From: Clostridia bacterium
GTDB lineage: Bacteria > Bacillota > Clostridia > Christensenellales > CAG-314
Reading direction: 5' to 3'
Length of the DNA stretch: 57,534 nt
Assembly: GCA_028698585.1 (NCBI GenBank)
Contig: JAQVWG010000010.1
Location: 1 to 57,534, forward strand
A program made the translations under genes and the position numbers. The notes under the pieces were generated by a model that worked only from the letters and a program-made list of their open reading frames with translations, had not been told where the DNA came from and made no database searches. The stretch's first letter is position 1; every line of letters starts with the position of its first letter. Shown here piece by piece: positions 12,554 through 20,036 of the stretch.

Positions 12554-14452
12554 ATGAAAATTACATTAGTAGCAGACATATACGGCGAACAGAATAACGG
12601 TACCACTATTACTGCAAGGCGACTGGTGGACAATCTGCGCAAGCGTGGACACACCGTTAAGGTGGTTTCCGCACACGATTGTGGAACGGACTGCGTGGTT
12701 CTGCCTAAACGCAGTTTCGGGATATTCAACAATTATATAGAGAAGAAGAATGGCGTAGGTTTCGCTCGACCAGATGAAAATAAGTTGCGCGAGGCTATAG
12801 CGGGAAGCGATTGTGTACACTTCTTGTTGCCATTTAAGGTGTGCCAAAAAGGTATCAAGATAGCCAGAGAACTGGGCGTACCTTATACAACTGCTTTTCA
12901 CTGTCAGCCAGAGAATATAACTTCGCATATGTTCATGGAGAACTTCGCGCCAGTCAACAACTATATATATAGAATGTTTTACCGCGATTTCTATAAATAT
13001 GCGCACTTCATTCATTGTCCTAGCGAGTTTATTGCAAGTCAGTTGCGCAAGAATGGATATATTGCAGACATAAGGGTAATCAGTAACGGAGTCATACCCA
13101 CTTATCAACCGTCACCCACACCTAAGCCGGACAACCTCGTCAACAAGATATGTATCCTGTTTATTGGTAGGTATAGTAAGGAAAAACGACACGATTTACT
13201 AATAGATGCTGTGGCAAAGAGTAGTTATAGCAAAGATATTCAGTTGATTTTTGCAGGCTGTGGACCACAGCAACAACACATAGAGCAGTTGGGCAAAAAA
13301 CTGGTCAATCCACCCATACTACGACTGTTCAGTAAGGAGGAGTTAGCCGAGACAATCAATTACTGTGATTTATATGTGCACCCAAGCGATGTAGAGATTG
13401 AAGCAATCAGTTGTATTGAGGCATTTACTTGTGGGCTAGTTCCTATAATTAGTGATTCTGCCAGAAGCGCGACCAAACAGTTCGCACTGTGCCCAGAGAG
13501 TTTATTCAAACAGGGTGATAGTCAGGATTTAGCGAATAGAATTGACTACTGGTTGACTCATCCGCAGGAAAAAGCTCACAAGTCGGCAGAATATATAGAG
13601 TATGGCAAGAACTTTGCAATAGAAAAGTGTATCGACCGAATGGAACAGATGATGATGGATGCAGTCGTTTACTATAAACAGTACTATACTGAACGCAGCG
13701 AATTGTATGATACCAATAAGCACTATAGATATATATATCCTGATGACCCTACTCAACACATGATACACATCAAGCACGTCAATAACGCCCCCAAGAAGGA
13801 TAGCAAATATAAGTTTGTCAACACAGGTGTGCTATATAGTGTGTATGCAACTGCGCTGAGAATATTAGCACTCGTTGCACTGCCAGTATATGCCAAGACT
13901 ACTACCAAGTACAAGATAGTAGGCAAAAAGAACTTGCGCAAGGTCAAAGGCAAGGGTGCTGTGTTGGTTGCCAATCACGTTCACACAATGGATACAGCAA
14001 TCATTTGTGCATGTGCCAGTCCGCTAAGAAAAATTAATTATGTGACGTTATCGGACAATGTAGATATACCTATTGCCGGCAGTATAATTAAGGCTCTAGG
14101 CGGTATACCGCTTGCAGACTGCATAAGTGGTATGAAAAAGTTCGATATAACGATATGTCGAATGCTAGAGGATAATAAGCCTATTTTGTTCTTCCCAGAG
14201 GGTTCGCTATGGCCTGAGTATAAAGGCATTAGACCATTTCACAAGGGTGCGTTCGTTTATGCCATTAAGAGCAACGTTCCTATTGTTCCTTGTATCTACA
14301 CATTCAGGACGGATATGACGGGCAAAAAACTGATTACATTAACTATATGTGAGCCATTCTACCCACAGACTAGTAGTCCTCAGGGGTTGGCAGATTACAC
14401 CAAGGCATACTTTGACGAGTTTACTGACAAATACTATCGTGAACACGCATAA
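12554..14452 (+). CDS. Bifunctional GT4 glycosyltransferase - PlsC-type acyltransferase fusion
   Basis: 632 residues in one frame. The first ~390 residues are a GT-B glycosyltransferase of family 4, with the sugar-nucleotide region FIGRYSKEKRHDLLIDA and an E-x7-E motif in HPSDVEIEAISCIEAF. Residues ~430-632 are a lysophospholipid acyltransferase domain with NHVHTMD (H-x4-D, His475), GGIPLAD and FPEGSLW (about 547-550). The GT part probably glycosylates a lipid acceptor and the second part acylates it or supplies phosphatidate, at the inner face of the membrane. A hydrophobic stretch around residue 435 could anchor it. AGGAG lies 5 bases before the ATG. It is divergent from the XRE gene. Acceptor unknown. 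Confidence 0.88.
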   Translation: MKITLVADIYGEQNNGTTITARRLVDNLRKRGHTVKVVSAHDCGTDCVVLPKRSFGIFNNYIEKKNGVGFARPDENKLREAIAGSDCVHFLLPFKVCQKGIKIARELGVPYTTAFHCQPENITSHMFMENFAPVNNYIYRMFYRDFYKYAHFIHCPSEFIASQLRKNGYIADIRVISNGVIPTYQPSPTPKPDNLVNKICILFIGRYSKEKRHDLLIDAVAKSSYSKDIQLIFAGCGPQQQHIEQLGKKLVNPPILRLFSKEELAETINYCDLYVHPSDVEIEAISCIEAFTCGLVPIISDSARSATKQFALCPESLFKQGDSQDLANRIDYWLTHPQEKAHKSAEYIEYGKNFAIEKCIDRMEQMMMDAVVYYKQYYTERSELYDTNKHYRYIYPDDPTQHMIHIKHVNNAPKKDSKYKFVNTGVLYSVYATALRILALVALPVYAKTTTKYKIVGKKNLRKVKGKGAVLVANHVHTMDTAIICACASPLRKINYVTLSDNVDIPIAGSIIKALGGIPLADCISGMKKFDITICRMLEDNKPILFFPEGSLWPEYKGIRPFHKGAFVYAIKSNVPIVPCIYTFRTDMTGKKLITLTICEPFYPQTSSPQGLADYTKAYFDEFTDKYYREHA

Positions 14453-14675
14453 GCACACGGATATAGTTAATAAGCGCAGTGTGATAATATACTTAATAAG
14501 TTGACCTATGTTTCAAGGATTAATCAGTATAAGTACGGTAGATAACACTCTGGTAACATGTATATATATAAAGTGCATTATATATATAATCAATTATAGA
14601 CAATTACAAACACATAGCACACGGATATAGTTAATAAGAGCAGTGTGATAATATACTTAATAAGTTGACCTATGT
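14453..14675. repeat. Direct repeat of the sequence after the GT4-PlsC stop codon
   Basis: 14453-14511 and 14617-14675 match at 58 of 59 bases, with a period of 164 bp. Similarity continues weakly in both directions. Upstream it includes the last codons and stop (AACACGCATAA versus AACACATAG). Downstream a shared TACGGTAG block is visible. The unit is therefore the gene's 3' end plus trailer. Confidence 0.9.
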
Positions 14676-14831
14676 ATTGATGATAAACAGCATACGTACG
14701 GTAGTGTTGCTTGTACTATGAAATGTAAACATAACTATAGTAAATTAGACAATGGCAGACAAATGCCGTAGTATTGTTGCCGTGCCAATAAAAAAGAGCA
14801 ACAAAAAAGTGCTATAATTTTGACTTTGATA

Positions 14832-14860
14832 TTGACTTTTGTTAATTGTTGCTGTATGCT
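14832..14860 (+). promoter_or_regulatory. Promoter of the ilvE-vor operon leader
   Basis: TTGACT (14832-14837), a 17-base spacer and TATGCT (14855-14860). Transcription would begin near 14866, right at the ribosome binding site of the leader ORF, which fits an attenuator leader. Confidence 0.65.
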
Positions 14861-14876
14861 AATGCAAGAGGTAAAA

Positions 14877-14996
14877 ATGTTGTTTATCAAACAAAATATT
14901 ACTGCACTAATCTCAATAGTAGGTGTTTGTTTACATATGATATGCAAGCACTCAGTCGAAGATTTACTTTTTGACTACCATAATAACTCGTGGTAG
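14877..14996 (+). CDS. Candidate leader peptide rich in Leu/Ile/Val
   Basis: 39-codon ORF preceded by AAGAGG with 5-base spacing and starting about 11 bases after the predicted transcript start. Thirteen of 39 residues are Leu, Ile or Val, with a dense run at codons 11-19 (LISIVGVCL). Its final codons TGG TAG lie inside the 3' arm of the terminator hairpin at 14974-15004. Placement between promoter and terminator, directly before a branched-chain amino acid operon, suggests a regulatory leader peptide. It could alternatively be a small hydrophobic protein or chance. No T-box sequence (AGGGTGG...ACCGCG) is present. Confidence 0.6.
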   Translation: MLFIKQNITALISIVGVCLHMICKHSVEDLLFDYHNNSW

Positions 14997-15004
14997 TTTT
15001 TTTT
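14974..15004 (+). terminator. Attenuator-type terminator before ilvE
   Basis: ACTACCA (14974-14980), 10-base loop, TGGTAGT (14991-14997), then an unbroken run of T to 15004. It lies 52 bases before the ilvE ATG and after the operon promoter, so it must be read through for expression. The leader ORF runs through the stem. I could not find a convincing competing antiterminator pairing by eye. Confidence 0.85.
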
Positions 15005-15055: not shown

Positions 15056-16114
15056 ATGAAGTTTATTAAAGCAACACAATTGAAGGATAAGCCTGATGCA
15101 ACCAAACTGAAGTTCGGTCAATTATTCACCGACTACATGCTGGAGATGAATTATGAGAACGGGCAATGGGGCGAACCAGTTATCAGTCCTTATCACGATT
15201 TAGTGCTTGCTCCAGAGAGCATGATTCTACACTACGGGCAAGGCATCTTCGAGGGTGCTAAGGCTTTTCGCAATGATGAGGGTAAGATAATCCTATTCAG
15301 ACTGATGGATAATCTCAAGCGTCTTAATCTATCTGCCGAGAGAATGTGTATGCCACAGATGGACACAGACAAAGTAATGGGTTATATACTGGAACTTATT
15401 GATATAGAGAGAGATTGGGTGCCTAGCTCACCGGAGACATCACTATACCTGCGCCCCACAATGATTGCCACAGAGAAGGCAGTGGGCGTGCATGCGTCGA
15501 ACAGTTACAAGTTCTTCGTCATATTATCTCCAGTTGGGCCATATATCAATGGATTTAATAACCCTGCCAAGATATACGTAGAAGACACTTATACAAGGGC
15601 TGCTGTCGGTGGCACAGGCGAAGCAAAGTGCGTTGGCAACTATGCGGGTAGTATATTGGCTGCACATAAGGCCAAGGCAAAAGGTTACAATGAAGTACTG
15701 TGGTTAGACGCTAAAGACAGGCAGTATATCGAAGAAGTGGGTGCAATGAACGTGATGTTCGTTGTGGACGGCGAGATAATCACGCCTACTTTAACAGGCA
15801 GTATACTAAGAGGTATCACAAGGGATAGTATTATCAAGATGATGAGAGATATAGGATATACTGTCAGAGAGGAGAGAATCAACATCAATGATTTAATTAA
15901 ATGGTACGATGAGGGCAGAGTGACAGAGATGTTCGGCTGTGGTACAGCAGCAGTCGTTAGCCCAGTTGGAACACTTACTTATAAAGATAAAGTGTGTGTG
16001 TTTAACAATGGTAAATCTGGTCCTGTGGCAAGAGTGGCGTTCGACAGGCTAGACGACATACGTAAACTGCGTGTTCCTGATAAATACGGCTGGATAACAG
16101 TACTAGGGAAATAA
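15056..16114 (+). CDS. ilvE: Branched-chain amino acid aminotransferase
   Basis: 352 residues, PLP-dependent fold type IV. It transfers the amino group between Leu/Ile/Val and 2-oxoglutarate. Family marks are GQGIFEGAKAFR, YLRPTMIATE, and GGTGEAKCVGNYAGSILAAHKA, with the cofactor lysine at the conserved EVLWLDAKD...EEVGAMNVMF region. Length and layout match the longer (type II) enzymes of Gram-positives. GGAGG lies 11 bases before the ATG. It is the first gene of an operon with the 2-oxoacid oxidoreductase and CoA transferase genes, so here it probably acts mainly in catabolism, supplying 2-oxoacids. Expression is probably set by the leader at 14832-15004. Confidence 0.95.
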   Translation: MKFIKATQLKDKPDATKLKFGQLFTDYMLEMNYENGQWGEPVISPYHDLVLAPESMILHYGQGIFEGAKAFRNDEGKIILFRLMDNLKRLNLSAERMCMPQMDTDKVMGYILELIDIERDWVPSSPETSLYLRPTMIATEKAVGVHASNSYKFFVILSPVGPYINGFNNPAKIYVEDTYTRAAVGGTGEAKCVGNYAGSILAAHKAKAKGYNEVLWLDAKDRQYIEEVGAMNVMFVVDGEIITPTLTGSILRGITRDSIIKMMRDIGYTVREERININDLIKWYDEGRVTEMFGCGTAAVVSPVGTLTYKDKVCVFNNGKSGPVARVAFDRLDDIRKLRVPDKYGWITVLGK

Positions 16115-16198: not shown

Positions 16199-16396
16199 AT
16201 GCAAGTAAAGATTGATTTCGAAAGATGCAAGGGCTGTGGACTATGCGTAAACGCTTGTCCAAAAAAAGTCCTGTGTATCGGCGACAAGAGCAACAAAGGT
16301 GGATATTTTGTGGCAAGGGTAGACAAGCCTGAACAATGTATAGGCTGTTGTGCATGTGCTTACATGTGTCCTGACAGTTGTGTGGAGGTGGAATAA
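16199..16396 (+). CDS. vorD: 2-oxoacid:ferredoxin oxidoreductase, delta subunit (2[4Fe-4S] ferredoxin)
   Basis: 65 residues with two CxxCxxCxxxC-type clusters (CKGCGLCVNACP and CIGCCACAYMCP), the normal form of the small ferredoxin subunit that passes electrons from the TPP site to ferredoxin. An AAAAGAGG site precedes the ATG. The alpha-subunit gene begins 4 bases after the stop. The first subunit gene after ilvE, 84 bases downstream of it. Substrate class (branched-chain 2-oxoacids) is inferred from ilvE linkage and from the similarity of the alpha subunit to VorB, since sequence alone does not exclude KorD. Confidence 0.92.
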   Translation: MQVKIDFERCKGCGLCVNACPKKVLCIGDKSNKGGYFVARVDKPEQCIGCCACAYMCPDSCVEVE

Positions 16397-16400
16397 TAAG

Positions 16401-17459
16401 ATGGCTAAGAAGTTATTCAAGGGCAACGAGGCACTGGGCGAAGCTGCGGTGCTGGGCGGTTGCAGATTTTTCTTCGGTTATCCAATCACACCACAGACAG
16501 AATTAAGCGAGTATCTGTCATGGAGATTGTATGATGTCGGTGGCACATTCATACAGAGCGAGAGCGAAGTGTCAGCTATCAATATGGTGTACGGTGCAGC
16601 AGGTGCCGGCGCCAGAGCGTTGACAAGTAGTAGCAGTCCGGGAATATCGCTTAAACAAGAGGGGATATCATACATAGCGTGTGCTGAGTTACCTTGCGTA
16701 ATCGTCAATATGATGAGGTCTGGACCAGGACTAGGCGGTATTATGCCCAGTCAAGCCGATTATTCGCAAGCAACTAAGGGTGGCGGACACGGCGATTACA
16801 GAATGTTGGTGTATGGACCAAGCACCATTCAAGAGGCAGTTGACATTATGTATAACGCTTTTGATAAGGCAGAACAATATAGAATACCAGTTATGATACT
16901 GGGTGACGGTATGTTAGGTCAGTTAATGGAACCAGTAGAGTTTCCACCACTTAAGCAGATGCCAGATCCAAGTACTAAGGAGTGGGCAACCACAGGTACT
17001 CACTATGGTAAGGACAGGAGAATAGTCAACTCACTGTACATAGTGGCCAGCGAAAACGAGGCAGTCAACATTAAACTGCAAGCCAAGTATGACTTACTCA
17101 GGAAGAACGAAGTAATGTGCGAAGAGTATATGTGCGAAGATGCCGACATCATCATTACAGCATACGGCACAGTGGCAAGAATATGCAAGTCTGCCGTTAA
17201 AGCATTGAGGGAGAAGGGAATCAAAACTGGTCTGATTAGACCTATCACACTGTTCCCATTTCCAACTGAAGTGTTCCATAAGTATGCAAACAGCGACAAG
17301 ACTAAGAAATTCGTAACCATCGAGTTGTCTACTGGACAATATAACGAGGACGTGTTACTGTCCGTTATGGGCAAGAAACCAGTCGAGTTCTATTGCAGAA
17401 TGGGTGGCTCGGTAATGACTGTTGAAGAGATTGTCAATAAAGTTAAGGAGGTGTACTAA
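16401..17459 (+). CDS. vorB: 2-oxoacid:ferredoxin oxidoreductase, alpha subunit (VorB-like)
   Basis: 352 residues. It carries the pyrimidine-binding and domain II part of the enzyme that oxidatively decarboxylates 2-oxoacids to acyl-CoA. Typical stretches are FFGYPITPQTELSEYLS, QSESEVSAINMVYGAAGAGARALTSSSSPG and SGPGLGGIMPSQADY, with GHGDYRMLV. I place the start at ATG 16401, which follows GGAGGTGG and gives the usual short MAKKLFKGNEA N-terminus. The frame is open to 16350 but that would overlap vorD. Part of the ilvE-vorDBAC operon. Assignment to branched-chain 2-oxoacids rather than 2-oxoglutarate rests mostly on context. Confidence 0.92.
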   Translation: MAKKLFKGNEALGEAAVLGGCRFFFGYPITPQTELSEYLSWRLYDVGGTFIQSESEVSAINMVYGAAGAGARALTSSSSPGISLKQEGISYIACAELPCVIVNMMRSGPGLGGIMPSQADYSQATKGGGHGDYRMLVYGPSTIQEAVDIMYNAFDKAEQYRIPVMILGDGMLGQLMEPVEFPPLKQMPDPSTKEWATTGTHYGKDRRIVNSLYIVASENEAVNIKLQAKYDLLRKNEVMCEEYMCEDADIIITAYGTVARICKSAVKALREKGIKTGLIRPITLFPFPTEVFHKYANSDKTKKFVTIELSTGQYNEDVLLSVMGKKPVEFYCRMGGSVMTVEEIVNKVKEVY

Positions 17460-17464
17460 TAACA

Positions 17465-18208
17465 ATGGCTACTTATCATAAATCTAATATGCTAACAGAT
17501 ACACCACTATCATTTTGTCCGGGTTGTACACACGGCATTGCACATAAATTGATTGCAGAGGTTCTGCAAGAATTAGGACAACAAGGTAATGTAATAGGTG
17601 TTGCACCTGTTGGTTGCTCGGTATTTGCCTATAAGTTCTTCAACTGCGACATGCAGGAAGCAGCACACGGCAGAGCGCCTGCTGTAGCAACAGGTATCAA
17701 GAGAGTTCACCCCGATAAAGTTGTATTTTCCTATCAAGGAGACGGCGATTTGGCATCTATCGGCCTTGCAGAGATTATGCACGCAGGACTGAGAGGGGAG
17801 AATATCACAGTAGTATTCATTAACAACGCAATATATGGTATGACTGGCGGGCAAATGGCACCAACATCACTAATTGGACAGAAAACAACCACTTCACCAT
17901 TCGGTCGTACGGTTGAGCGACAGGGTAACCCAATTAGAATGTGTGAGATGTTGGCTAGCCAAGACGGACCGGCATACCTTGAGAGAGTTATGTTGACAGA
18001 CTATGCTAACGTACTCAAGGCTAAGAGGGCTATTAAGAAAGCGTTCGAATATCAAATAGCAGGCAAGGGATTCAGCATGGTCGAGTGTCTATCTACTTGT
18101 CCAACCAACTGGCATATGACACCTGTACAGGCATGTCAACATATCAAGGACAATATGACCAAGATTTACCCGTTAGGTGTATTTAAGGATGTAGGGGGTG
18201 CAAAATAA
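17465..18208 (+). CDS. vorA: 2-oxoacid:ferredoxin oxidoreductase, beta subunit (TPP-binding)
   Basis: 247 residues. It binds thiamine diphosphate through GDGDLASIG...NNAIYGMTGGQ (the GDG-x25-NN motif) and has the usual FCPGCTHGIAHKL near the N-terminus and GCSVFAY further on. AAGGAGG from the end of vorB precedes the ATG. The stop overlaps the next start by one base (TAATG), a sign of coupled translation. Together with vorB, vorC and vorD it forms the four-subunit cytoplasmic enzyme that yields acyl-CoA, CO2 and reduced ferredoxin. Confidence 0.93.
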   Translation: MATYHKSNMLTDTPLSFCPGCTHGIAHKLIAEVLQELGQQGNVIGVAPVGCSVFAYKFFNCDMQEAAHGRAPAVATGIKRVHPDKVVFSYQGDGDLASIGLAEIMHAGLRGENITVVFINNAIYGMTGGQMAPTSLIGQKTTTSPFGRTVERQGNPIRMCEMLASQDGPAYLERVMLTDYANVLKAKRAIKKAFEYQIAGKGFSMVECLSTCPTNWHMTPVQACQHIKDNMTKIYPLGVFKDVGGAK

Positions 18209-18744
18209 TGGAACAAGGAATTATTTGTGCCGGATTCGGCGGACAGGGTGTGCTGTCGCTGGGCAAAATGATAGTGTATGTTGCAATGGAAAAAGGGTTG
18301 CATGTTACTTGGCTACCTAGTTACGGACCAGAAATGCGTGGTGGTACTGCCAACTGTTCCGTTGTTGCAAGCACCGAGGAAGTAGCAAGTCCACTGGTGT
18401 CTACGCCTGATTGTCTTATCGCTATGAACAGGCCAAGCCTTGACAAGTTCATTAACGACGTGGTCAGTGGTGGCATGGTGCTGATTAACAGCAGTCTTAT
18501 AGATATCAAAGTAGACAGGAAGGATATTAACGTGTACTATATACCCGCCAACGATTTAGCATTACAGCACGCTAATGAGCGTTCATCCAATATAGTAATG
18601 TATGGTGCTTACGCTAAATTGAATGGCAATATAGGTAGTATGGATGAGTTCGAGAAGATTCTAATTAAACAGTTTGGCAAGAGCGCAGACAAGGACAAGA
18701 TTATTAGTGCTTTCCATGCAGGTTATGAGGAAATTAAGGTATGA
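18208..18744 (+). CDS. vorC: 2-oxoacid:ferredoxin oxidoreductase, gamma subunit
   Basis: 178 residues with the family's opening GFGGQGVLSLGKM and LPSYGPEMRGGTANCSV, which contacts CoA and the alpha subunit. Start overlaps the vorA stop by one base and its stop overlaps the next ATG by four bases (ATGA), so the operon is tightly coupled. The four genes are complete and in the order delta-alpha-beta-gamma, common for VOR/KOR clusters of anaerobes. Confidence 0.92.
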   Translation: MEQGIICAGFGGQGVLSLGKMIVYVAMEKGLHVTWLPSYGPEMRGGTANCSVVASTEEVASPLVSTPDCLIAMNRPSLDKFINDVVSGGMVLINSSLIDIKVDRKDINVYYIPANDLALQHANERSSNIVMYGAYAKLNGNIGSMDEFEKILIKQFGKSADKDKIISAFHAGYEEIKV

Positions 18745-20036
18745 ATTATCAAAATAGACTGATTACCACTCAACAAGTATTACAGTTAATACAAGATAAC
18801 TACACCATAGCGATAGGTGAGGGACAGGGTGCGCCGAGAGGTTTTCTTGGACAATTACATACCCTTAATGACAGACCACTGACCGGAGTTGACGTGTGGT
18901 TCTGTCGTATGCCAAGAAGTTTTGAGTTTTTGCAGAGAGAGAGTAATAATTTTACACTTAATACTGTATTTACTACTAAACCATTAAGGGAAGCCAAATG
19001 TTTCGTAAATGGCTATGCGCCCACTCATCTGTCTAAGGCCGGTGCCACTATACGTTCACGCAGGGGAGTAGATATGTACGTAGTTACAGTTACCCCACCT
19101 GATGAGCGTGGTATGGTGTCTACCGGTATGGCAGGCATTATCAATAAAGAGATGGTAGATAACAGTCGCATGATTATAGGCGAAATAAACGAGAATATGC
19201 CCTATATATATGGTGCGACAGAGATACCTGTTGACAAAATCACCTACTTTACGCATGAGAATATACCACTAGACCCTCTGCCCCCAGTTAAGGCTGGCGA
19301 GAAAGAGATGGCAATCGCCAAAGAAGTGGCCAAGTACATCAACGATGGCGACTGTCTGCAAGCAGGGATAGGCGGAATACCTGATGCACTGATGACCTGC
19401 CTTGCCGATAAGAAGGATTTGGGCGTACATACGGAACTGTTAAGCGACGGATTGATACAACTAATTAAGAGTGGTGCCGTTAACTGTAGCAAGAAGAACT
19501 TTAACACGGGCAAAATTGTCGCAGCCACATTCGACGGTTCTCAAGAAGCATTTGACTTTTTCGACCACAACAAGGATATAGTGGCGTATGACAGCAGTTA
19601 TACTAATAATCTATACATTATGGGGCAGAATGATAACCAAGTGTCCGTCAACACTGCCATAGAGATAGATATAACGGGACAGTGTTGTGCAGAGAGTATA
19701 GGTAGCAGACAGTTCAGTGGCACGGGCGGATTCGCAGATACCGCACTGGGAGCACAGAAAAGCAAAGGTGGAAAGTCATTTATCGCACTATGTTCCACTG
19801 CTAATGCAACTATTAATGGCAAAAAAACTCTTGTGAGCAAAATAGTGCCCCAATTGAAGGCTGGTGCAACAGTGTCGTTACATAGGGATGATGTACAGTA
19901 TATTGCCACTGAGTATGGCGTTGTGTGTTTACGAGGACTACCAATTAGAGATAGAGTGCAACTAATGATAAGTATAGCTCACCCAGACTTCAGGGAATAT
20001 CTACATAAGTCAGCTCAAGAGTTGGGGCTGGAATAA
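18741..20036 (+). CDS. Acetyl-CoA hydrolase/transferase family CoA transferase
   Basis: 431 residues with both halves of the family: N-terminal part with GAPRGFLGQL, then GIGGIPDALM and the C-terminal ESIGSRQFSGTGGFADT with IATEYGVVCLRG. Members move CoA between acyl-CoAs and acetate, butyrate or succinate through a glutamyl-CoA intermediate. Overlapping vorC by four bases, it most likely releases isovalerate, isobutyrate or 2-methylbutyrate while making acetyl-CoA, which lets the cell conserve the thioester energy. Specificity cannot be read from sequence. The last seven codons and trailer are repeated twice downstream. Confidence 0.9.
   Translation: MNYQNRLITTQQVLQLIQDNYTIAIGEGQGAPRGFLGQLHTLNDRPLTGVDVWFCRMPRSFEFLQRESNNFTLNTVFTTKPLREAKCFVNGYAPTHLSKAGATIRSRRGVDMYVVTVTPPDERGMVSTGMAGIINKEMVDNSRMIIGEINENMPYIYGATEIPVDKITYFTHENIPLDPLPPVKAGEKEMAIAKEVAKYINDGDCLQAGIGGIPDALMTCLADKKDLGVHTELLSDGLIQLIKSGAVNCSKKNFNTGKIVAATFDGSQEAFDFFDHNKDIVAYDSSYTNNLYIMGQNDNQVSVNTAIEIDITGQCCAESIGSRQFSGTGGFADTALGAQKSKGGKSFIALCSTANATINGKKTLVSKIVPQLKAGATVSLHRDDVQYIATEYGVVCLRGLPIRDRVQLMISIAHPDFREYLHKSAQELGLE

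Follow-up and report, generated by a model that had tools for sequence, protein, structure and literature searches.

A short open reading frame ending at its terminator precedes ilvE-vor operons in one family of Clostridia: a candidate translation-dependent attenuator

The window analysed here comprises 57,534 nt of a Clostridia bacterium (assembly GCA_028698585.1, contig JAQVWG010000010.1) and carries on its plus strand an operon that opens with ilvE (15056–16114), whose product was identified as a branched-chain amino acid aminotransferase (NCBIfam PRK13357, 435 bits with a cut-off of 307; TIGR01123 likewise above its cut-off). The following genes, all on the same strand, encode a ferredoxin-type subunit of 65 residues with cysteine clusters (16199–16396), which its translation and operon position mark as the probable vor delta subunit, and VorB (16401–17459), a subunit of 3-methyl-2-oxobutanoate (2-ketoisovalerate) ferredoxin oxidoreductase (NCBIfam PRK07119, 524 bits, cut-off 399). 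Next come the 2-oxoacid ferredoxin oxidoreductase beta (17465–18208) and gamma (18208–18744) subunits, both scoring below curated cut-offs and assigned from operon position, and a protein of the acyl-CoA:acetate CoA-transferase family (18741–20036; TIGR03948, 248 bits, below the cut-off of 675). Upstream, positions 12554–14452 encode a protein of 632 residues with a glycosyltransferase-like N-terminal and an acylglycerolphosphate acyltransferase-like C-terminal part, in both cases by weak matches only. Between the end of this gene and the leader promoter, two direct repeats of about 90 bp (14452–14541 and 14616–14704) are 90% identical to each other, and elsewhere in the genome copies of this repeat were found only on the duplicate contig C16. 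This contig carries the leader, ilvE and vorB part of the window (contig C15) in reverse-complement orientation, with 100% identity and a matching offset, which is probably due to assembly redundancy.

The leader of the operon, about 140 nt and mostly ORF, begins behind a putative sigma-70-type promoter (14832–14860, plus strand) read from the sequence, in which a -35 element TTGACT (14832–14837) and a -10 element TATGCT (14855–14860) are separated by a spacer of 17 nt; its 9 of 12 matches are, taken alone, at chance level. A Shine-Dalgarno sequence GAGGT (14868–14872, plus strand) precedes a leader ORF of 39 codons (14877–14996, plus strand), for which the first ATG past the presumed transcription start (14877) was taken as start codon, another in-frame ATG being located five codons earlier, at or before the presumed transcription start. 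The ORF translates as MLFIKQNITALISIVGVCLHMICKHSVEDLLFDYHNNSW and closes with TGG TAG (14991–14996). Its last codons are overlapped by an intrinsic terminator hairpin of 9 pairs and about −10 kcal/mol (14973–14998, plus strand), to which a T-run of 8 belongs (14997–15004, plus strand). Promoter, ribosome site, ORF and terminator are hence packed as the original prediction had it, and the TAG (14994–14996) does reside inside the 3' arm. A terminator scan of the window recovered the leader hairpin independently, yielding two terminator-like sites as compared to 0.3 expected from shuffling. Within the roughly 1.41 Mb read of the 1.49-Mb genome, 29 terminators in attenuator position were found upstream of genes, among which the window leader is the only one where an ORF with a Shine-Dalgarno sequence ends within the hairpin; only 11% of the ordinary gene terminators of this genome start at most 9 nt from a stop codon. 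Neither the T-box (RF00230) nor any other Rfam family matched the window at the gathering threshold. Elsewhere in the same genome, T-box matches are located at C2:33636-33869, C2:1667-1844 and C4:297055-297272, before genes reading as pheS, thrS and valS.

An ilvE of the window type is present in 9 of 41 genomes of the same family, and an arrangement of ilvE followed by vor genes was found in five genomes from four genera, namely that of the window (G000), G001, G003, G005 and G013, the ilvE products of the others being 56–61% identical to that of the window. In each of the five operons, ilvE is preceded by a promoter-like site followed by a short ORF with a T-run terminator. All of them have a TTGAC(T/A) element some 35–50 nt ahead of the leader ATG, and GAGGT recurs in G001, G005 and G013 and is absent in G003, i.e., the Shine-Dalgarno sequence is kept in four of the five leaders. 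The leader is thus real and recurrent and not a lone coincidence. The leader translations are MTLGFFILMLLLSIIFPIILVTGKIILPNNKG (G001), MELLSIIMCNSVLLGLNTVIYIGYPLKEVFFK (G003), MVMLMQKIMRKLNLGQR (G013) and MAMSMQIMHKLSLKQR (G005), differing in sequence and length between genera. An ORF that is not conserved next to a hairpin that is had been named as speaking against the original prediction; here, conservation extends to the existence of the ORF, its start and the position of its stop, but not to its sequence. The same pattern is found between the congeners G005 and G013, whose leaders comprise 16–17 codons: Shine-Dalgarno sequence, start, stop and hairpin are kept, most substitutions within the ORF are non-synonymous and the sole indel is one of 3 nt. 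As the gene upstream of the G001 leader appears to be divergent, the leader terminator cannot belong to that gene.

Among the relatives checked, ilvE outside this operon is not preceded by the element. In genus g5, represented by three genomes, a plain promoter is located before ilvE. No such leader was found before 25 further ilvE loci (21 readable) in other families of the order, where ilvE occurs in other contexts, nor at 25 vorB loci (22 readable) and vor operons of other families. A DNA search within the window's genus found no second genome, and a protein-pattern scan of GTDB r220 contigs returned only two distant loci, both without leader. Within G003 (L005), the terminator hairpin GGCTATCCTTTAAAGGAAGTC is present twice in tandem with a period of 39 nt, the first copy being located inside the leader ORF; this ORF is without a Shine-Dalgarno sequence and starts almost at the predicted transcript start, and may thus be leaderless. 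In G008 (L022), where the vor genes are located on another contig, a promoter upstream of ilvE is followed immediately by an ORF of 28 codons (MCKFAVIRHLCGERTCDCRLTTMFLSGD) and a GC-rich hairpin without T-run, which is possibly a distant counterpart of the ilvE-vor leader.

The clearest indication of the mechanism comes from the distance between stop codon and hairpin. In a classical attenuator the unstarved ribosome reaches the stop codon of the leader, and the terminator must still form. For thrL and leuL the terminator was measured here to be located 22 nt past the leader stop, 52 nt were reported for the S. aureus ilvD leader (PMC5794164), and amino-acid biosynthetic attenuators were described to all leave more than 20 nt between both elements (PMC4824070). 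None of the five leaders possesses such a spacing: the gap between stop and hairpin amounts to 6 nt in G001, 6 nt in G003 (second hairpin), 3 nt in G013 and 4 nt in G005, and in the window the stop codon resides inside the hairpin, the ORF running through the terminator. All five terminators are therefore found where the leader ORF ends, either overlapping it or starting a few nt further on. When the ORF was shuffled and the hairpin kept, the chance of a stop in that zone was 0.124 for the window, 0.023 for G001, 0.025 for G003 and 0.234 for G013, which for these four independent lineages (G005 being a congener of G013) gives a product of 1.7e-5; stops are present in the remaining two reading frames of each of the five leaders. 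When pyrL was measured by the same scripts, its hairpin was found inside its ORF. The pyrBI-like coupled geometry first noticed in the window was thereby seen again in four further genomes of the family, which represent three other genera, each time before the same operon. With stops at these positions, 3–6 nt ahead of the terminator or within it, a ribosome that does not stall would keep transcription from terminating, which is the reverse of classical attenuation. An E. coli terminator 5 nt past a stop codon was reported to drop from ~90% to <10% efficiency upon translation and to be restored without translation (PMC4824070).

Folding of the transcript with a ribosome placed at each codon left the terminator able to form up to the last few codons; with the ribosome at the stop codon it is lost in four of five leaders (window, G001, G013 and G005), while masked folding of G003 is complicated by its two tandem hairpin copies. 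The region before the hairpin is structured no more strongly than expected from shuffling (z −1.4 to +1.3), and no consistent or conserved pause hairpin was seen in the five leaders.

Considering that these leaders share the blocking geometry with pyrL, they are best read as elements in which translation to the leader end would open the operon. Judged from sequence, it is somewhat probable that the element is a translation-dependent attenuator whose ribosome-blocking geometry is functional. Transcription would start a few nt before the short ORF, and the intrinsic terminator would be met at the ORF end. With no following ribosome, or with an early stall, the hairpin would form and transcription would stop; a ribosome at the last codons, close behind RNA polymerase, would cover the 5' arm or the whole hairpin and thereby permit readthrough, as in pyrBI. 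We infer that the leader ORF would be translated, that the ribosome would be coupled closely enough to the polymerase and that the signal would be the supply of amino acids, possibly of branched-chain ones. Plenty of branched-chain amino acids as the specific signal is a doubtful assumption. More doubtful still is the complete scheme, according to which such plenty would switch the operon on by direct ribosome blockade, a Leu/Ile/Val leader read to its stop leading to branched-chain amino acid oxidation, the inverse of trp and leu attenuation.

The nature of the signal was approached via the composition of the leader peptides. In the window leader, which had been described as rich in Leu/Ile/Val, these residues account for 13 of the 38 following Met as compared to 9–11 expected from open shuffled frames (p = 0.07 or 0.33, depending on the null used), an excess that is not clearly above chance. 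For the four lineages together, 46 were counted and 34.6 expected (combined p 0.007), mostly owing to G001; three of the four lineages lean to Leu/Ile/Val, the genus of G005 and G013 being without excess, and hydrophobic residues overall are enriched at least as much (p 0.001). The idea that the Leu/Ile/Val codons act as sensor thus fared poorly, as these codons are not conserved, are near chance in the window and show no excess in one genus. Given the same blocking geometry, another signal may be at work, i.e., general translation capacity, nucleotide-dependent polymerase pausing as in pyrBI, or leader initiation. This sub-case of the best explanation is possible, if on the unlikely side: what is conserved is the stopping place of the ribosome and not the codons that it reads, a view with which the short leaders of G005 and G013 agree, whereas the lean of three lineages to Leu/Ile/Val and the fact that the operon handles these very amino acids speak for a more specific signal.

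The reading of translation opening the operon depends on a ribosome close behind the polymerase, and it is here that a simple premature terminator that acts constitutively or under the control of a protein or another RNA, with the ORF being incidental, has to be considered. Runaway transcription is predicted for Bacillota (PMC13323073), hence RNA polymerase may outrun the ribosomes in the phylum of the host, and the coding purine excess of the window's genome (0.085) is close to that of Bacillaceae (0.086) and unlike that of E. coli (0.031). Furthermore, E. coli terminators located in a coding region at most 100 nt from its start were reported to usually escape the ribosome unless the polymerase pauses (PMC4824070), and the leader hairpins start ~55–105 nt past the ATG. 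The spacing between stop codon and terminator was evaluated as a test for coupling, yet 200 kb of E. coli and 200 kb of Bacillaceae plasmids were not separated by it, so that this spacing says nothing on coupled versus runaway transcription. An incidental ORF would also be in line with the lack of peptide conservation, and a motif G(A/G)CTA(C/T), located at or just before the hairpin and common to all five leaders, would suit control by another factor. Nevertheless, a plain terminator is unlikely, as the placement of the stops with respect to the hairpin is far from random, the Shine-Dalgarno sequence is kept in four of five leaders and the window is devoid of T-box and other Rfam matches.

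Classical amino-acid attenuation, where a stall at Leu/Ile/Val codons would favour an antiterminator and starvation would switch the operon on, requires a separate folding approach, as masking of the full-length transcript is blind to it and hides the antiterminators of thrL and leuL. Transcripts were therefore cut before the 3' arm and the ribosome was treated as a barrier, whereby the thrL antiterminator was recovered (−13.7, p 0.01) and that of leuL was weak (−8.4, p 0.10); the non-classical control pyrL scored p 0.03 although it is a direct-blockade system. For G003, a 2:3 pairing between the tandem hairpins of −11.0 kcal/mol as compared to −5.6 for the terminator was identified with the ribosome at Val-Ile-Tyr-Ile (p 0.01), so that this leader could also operate by the classical mechanism. 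The antiterminator of the window is marginal (−7.1 kcal/mol, terminator −10.2, p 0.07), a value that carries little weight given the pyrL result, and G001, G013 and G005 did not exceed chance (p 0.31–0.37). Pairing between the Shine-Dalgarno sequence GAGGTA and the 5' arm was considered as well; it is strongest in G005 and G013, where the best antiterminators are within chance.

The metabolic direction of the operon bears on the same question. IlvC was not found in any of the five ilvE-vor genomes, three of which are only 76–82% complete. This enzyme, the ketol-acid reductoisomerase, is required for the synthesis of all three branched-chain amino acids. IlvC, together with a strong IlvD match, is present in two relatives that belong to another genus. 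The window's genome, which is without IlvC, encodes a diverged IlvD/Edd-family protein (C4:254162-255124, minus strand; 555-aa open frame), and the IlvC-bearing relatives score twice as high in the match to this family. The ilvE-vor-CoA-transferase operon may serve the oxidation of branched-chain amino acids or, in the other direction, their formation from branched-chain acids, its sequence being compatible with both. As IlvC is absent and the operon could run either way, salvage of branched-chain acids is also possible, and the label of a catabolic operon was not borne out. Synthesis by reductive carboxylation of branched-chain acids would suit a starvation switch. The classical mechanism is all the same distinctly unlikely, considering the spacing, the lack of conserved control codons and the three leaders without an above-chance antiterminator. 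A functional small membrane peptide as product of the ORF is highly improbable: the leaders of G001 and G003 are very hydrophobic, but sequence and length are totally different between genera, and in G005 and G013 the leader is short and does not resemble a membrane peptide.

The preferred reading, in which translation to the leader end opens the operon, has its closest known relative in E. coli pyrBI, where a short leader ORF (pyrL) is likewise located near the transcript start and a close ribosome prevents formation of the terminator hairpin. The ilvE-vor leader may work like pyrBI, yet it is not a pyrBI attenuator: in pyrL, an ORF of 44 codons, the hairpin begins 47 nt ahead of the ORF end, whereas the stop of the leaders described here is found 3–6 nt before or inside the hairpin, and pyrBI is a pyrimidine operon with UTP as signal via polymerase pausing, whereas a consistent pause hairpin is lacking before ilvE-vor. 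With thrL, leuL and the S. aureus ilvD leader, the ilvE-vor leaders share a leader ORF, a terminator and the connection to branched-chain amino acids; the control codons, conserved in that class, are not conserved here, and a competing antiterminator above chance is lacking in three of the five leaders. T-box riboswitches also place a premature terminator upstream of amino-acid genes, but the ilvE-vor leader is without T-box match and consists mostly of ORF. In literature searches, no attenuator with a leader ORF was found to have been described for catabolic vor or ilvE operons.

Given these comparisons, the distance between stop codon and terminator would provide a simple genome-wide signature for finding similar switches. 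If the ribosome does open the operon, a pyrBI-like switch would have been reused for amino acid metabolism, with a logic opposite to that of textbook attenuators. If true, this would point to working transcription-translation coupling in an apparent Bacillota group, i.e., within a phylum that is predicted to lack coupling.
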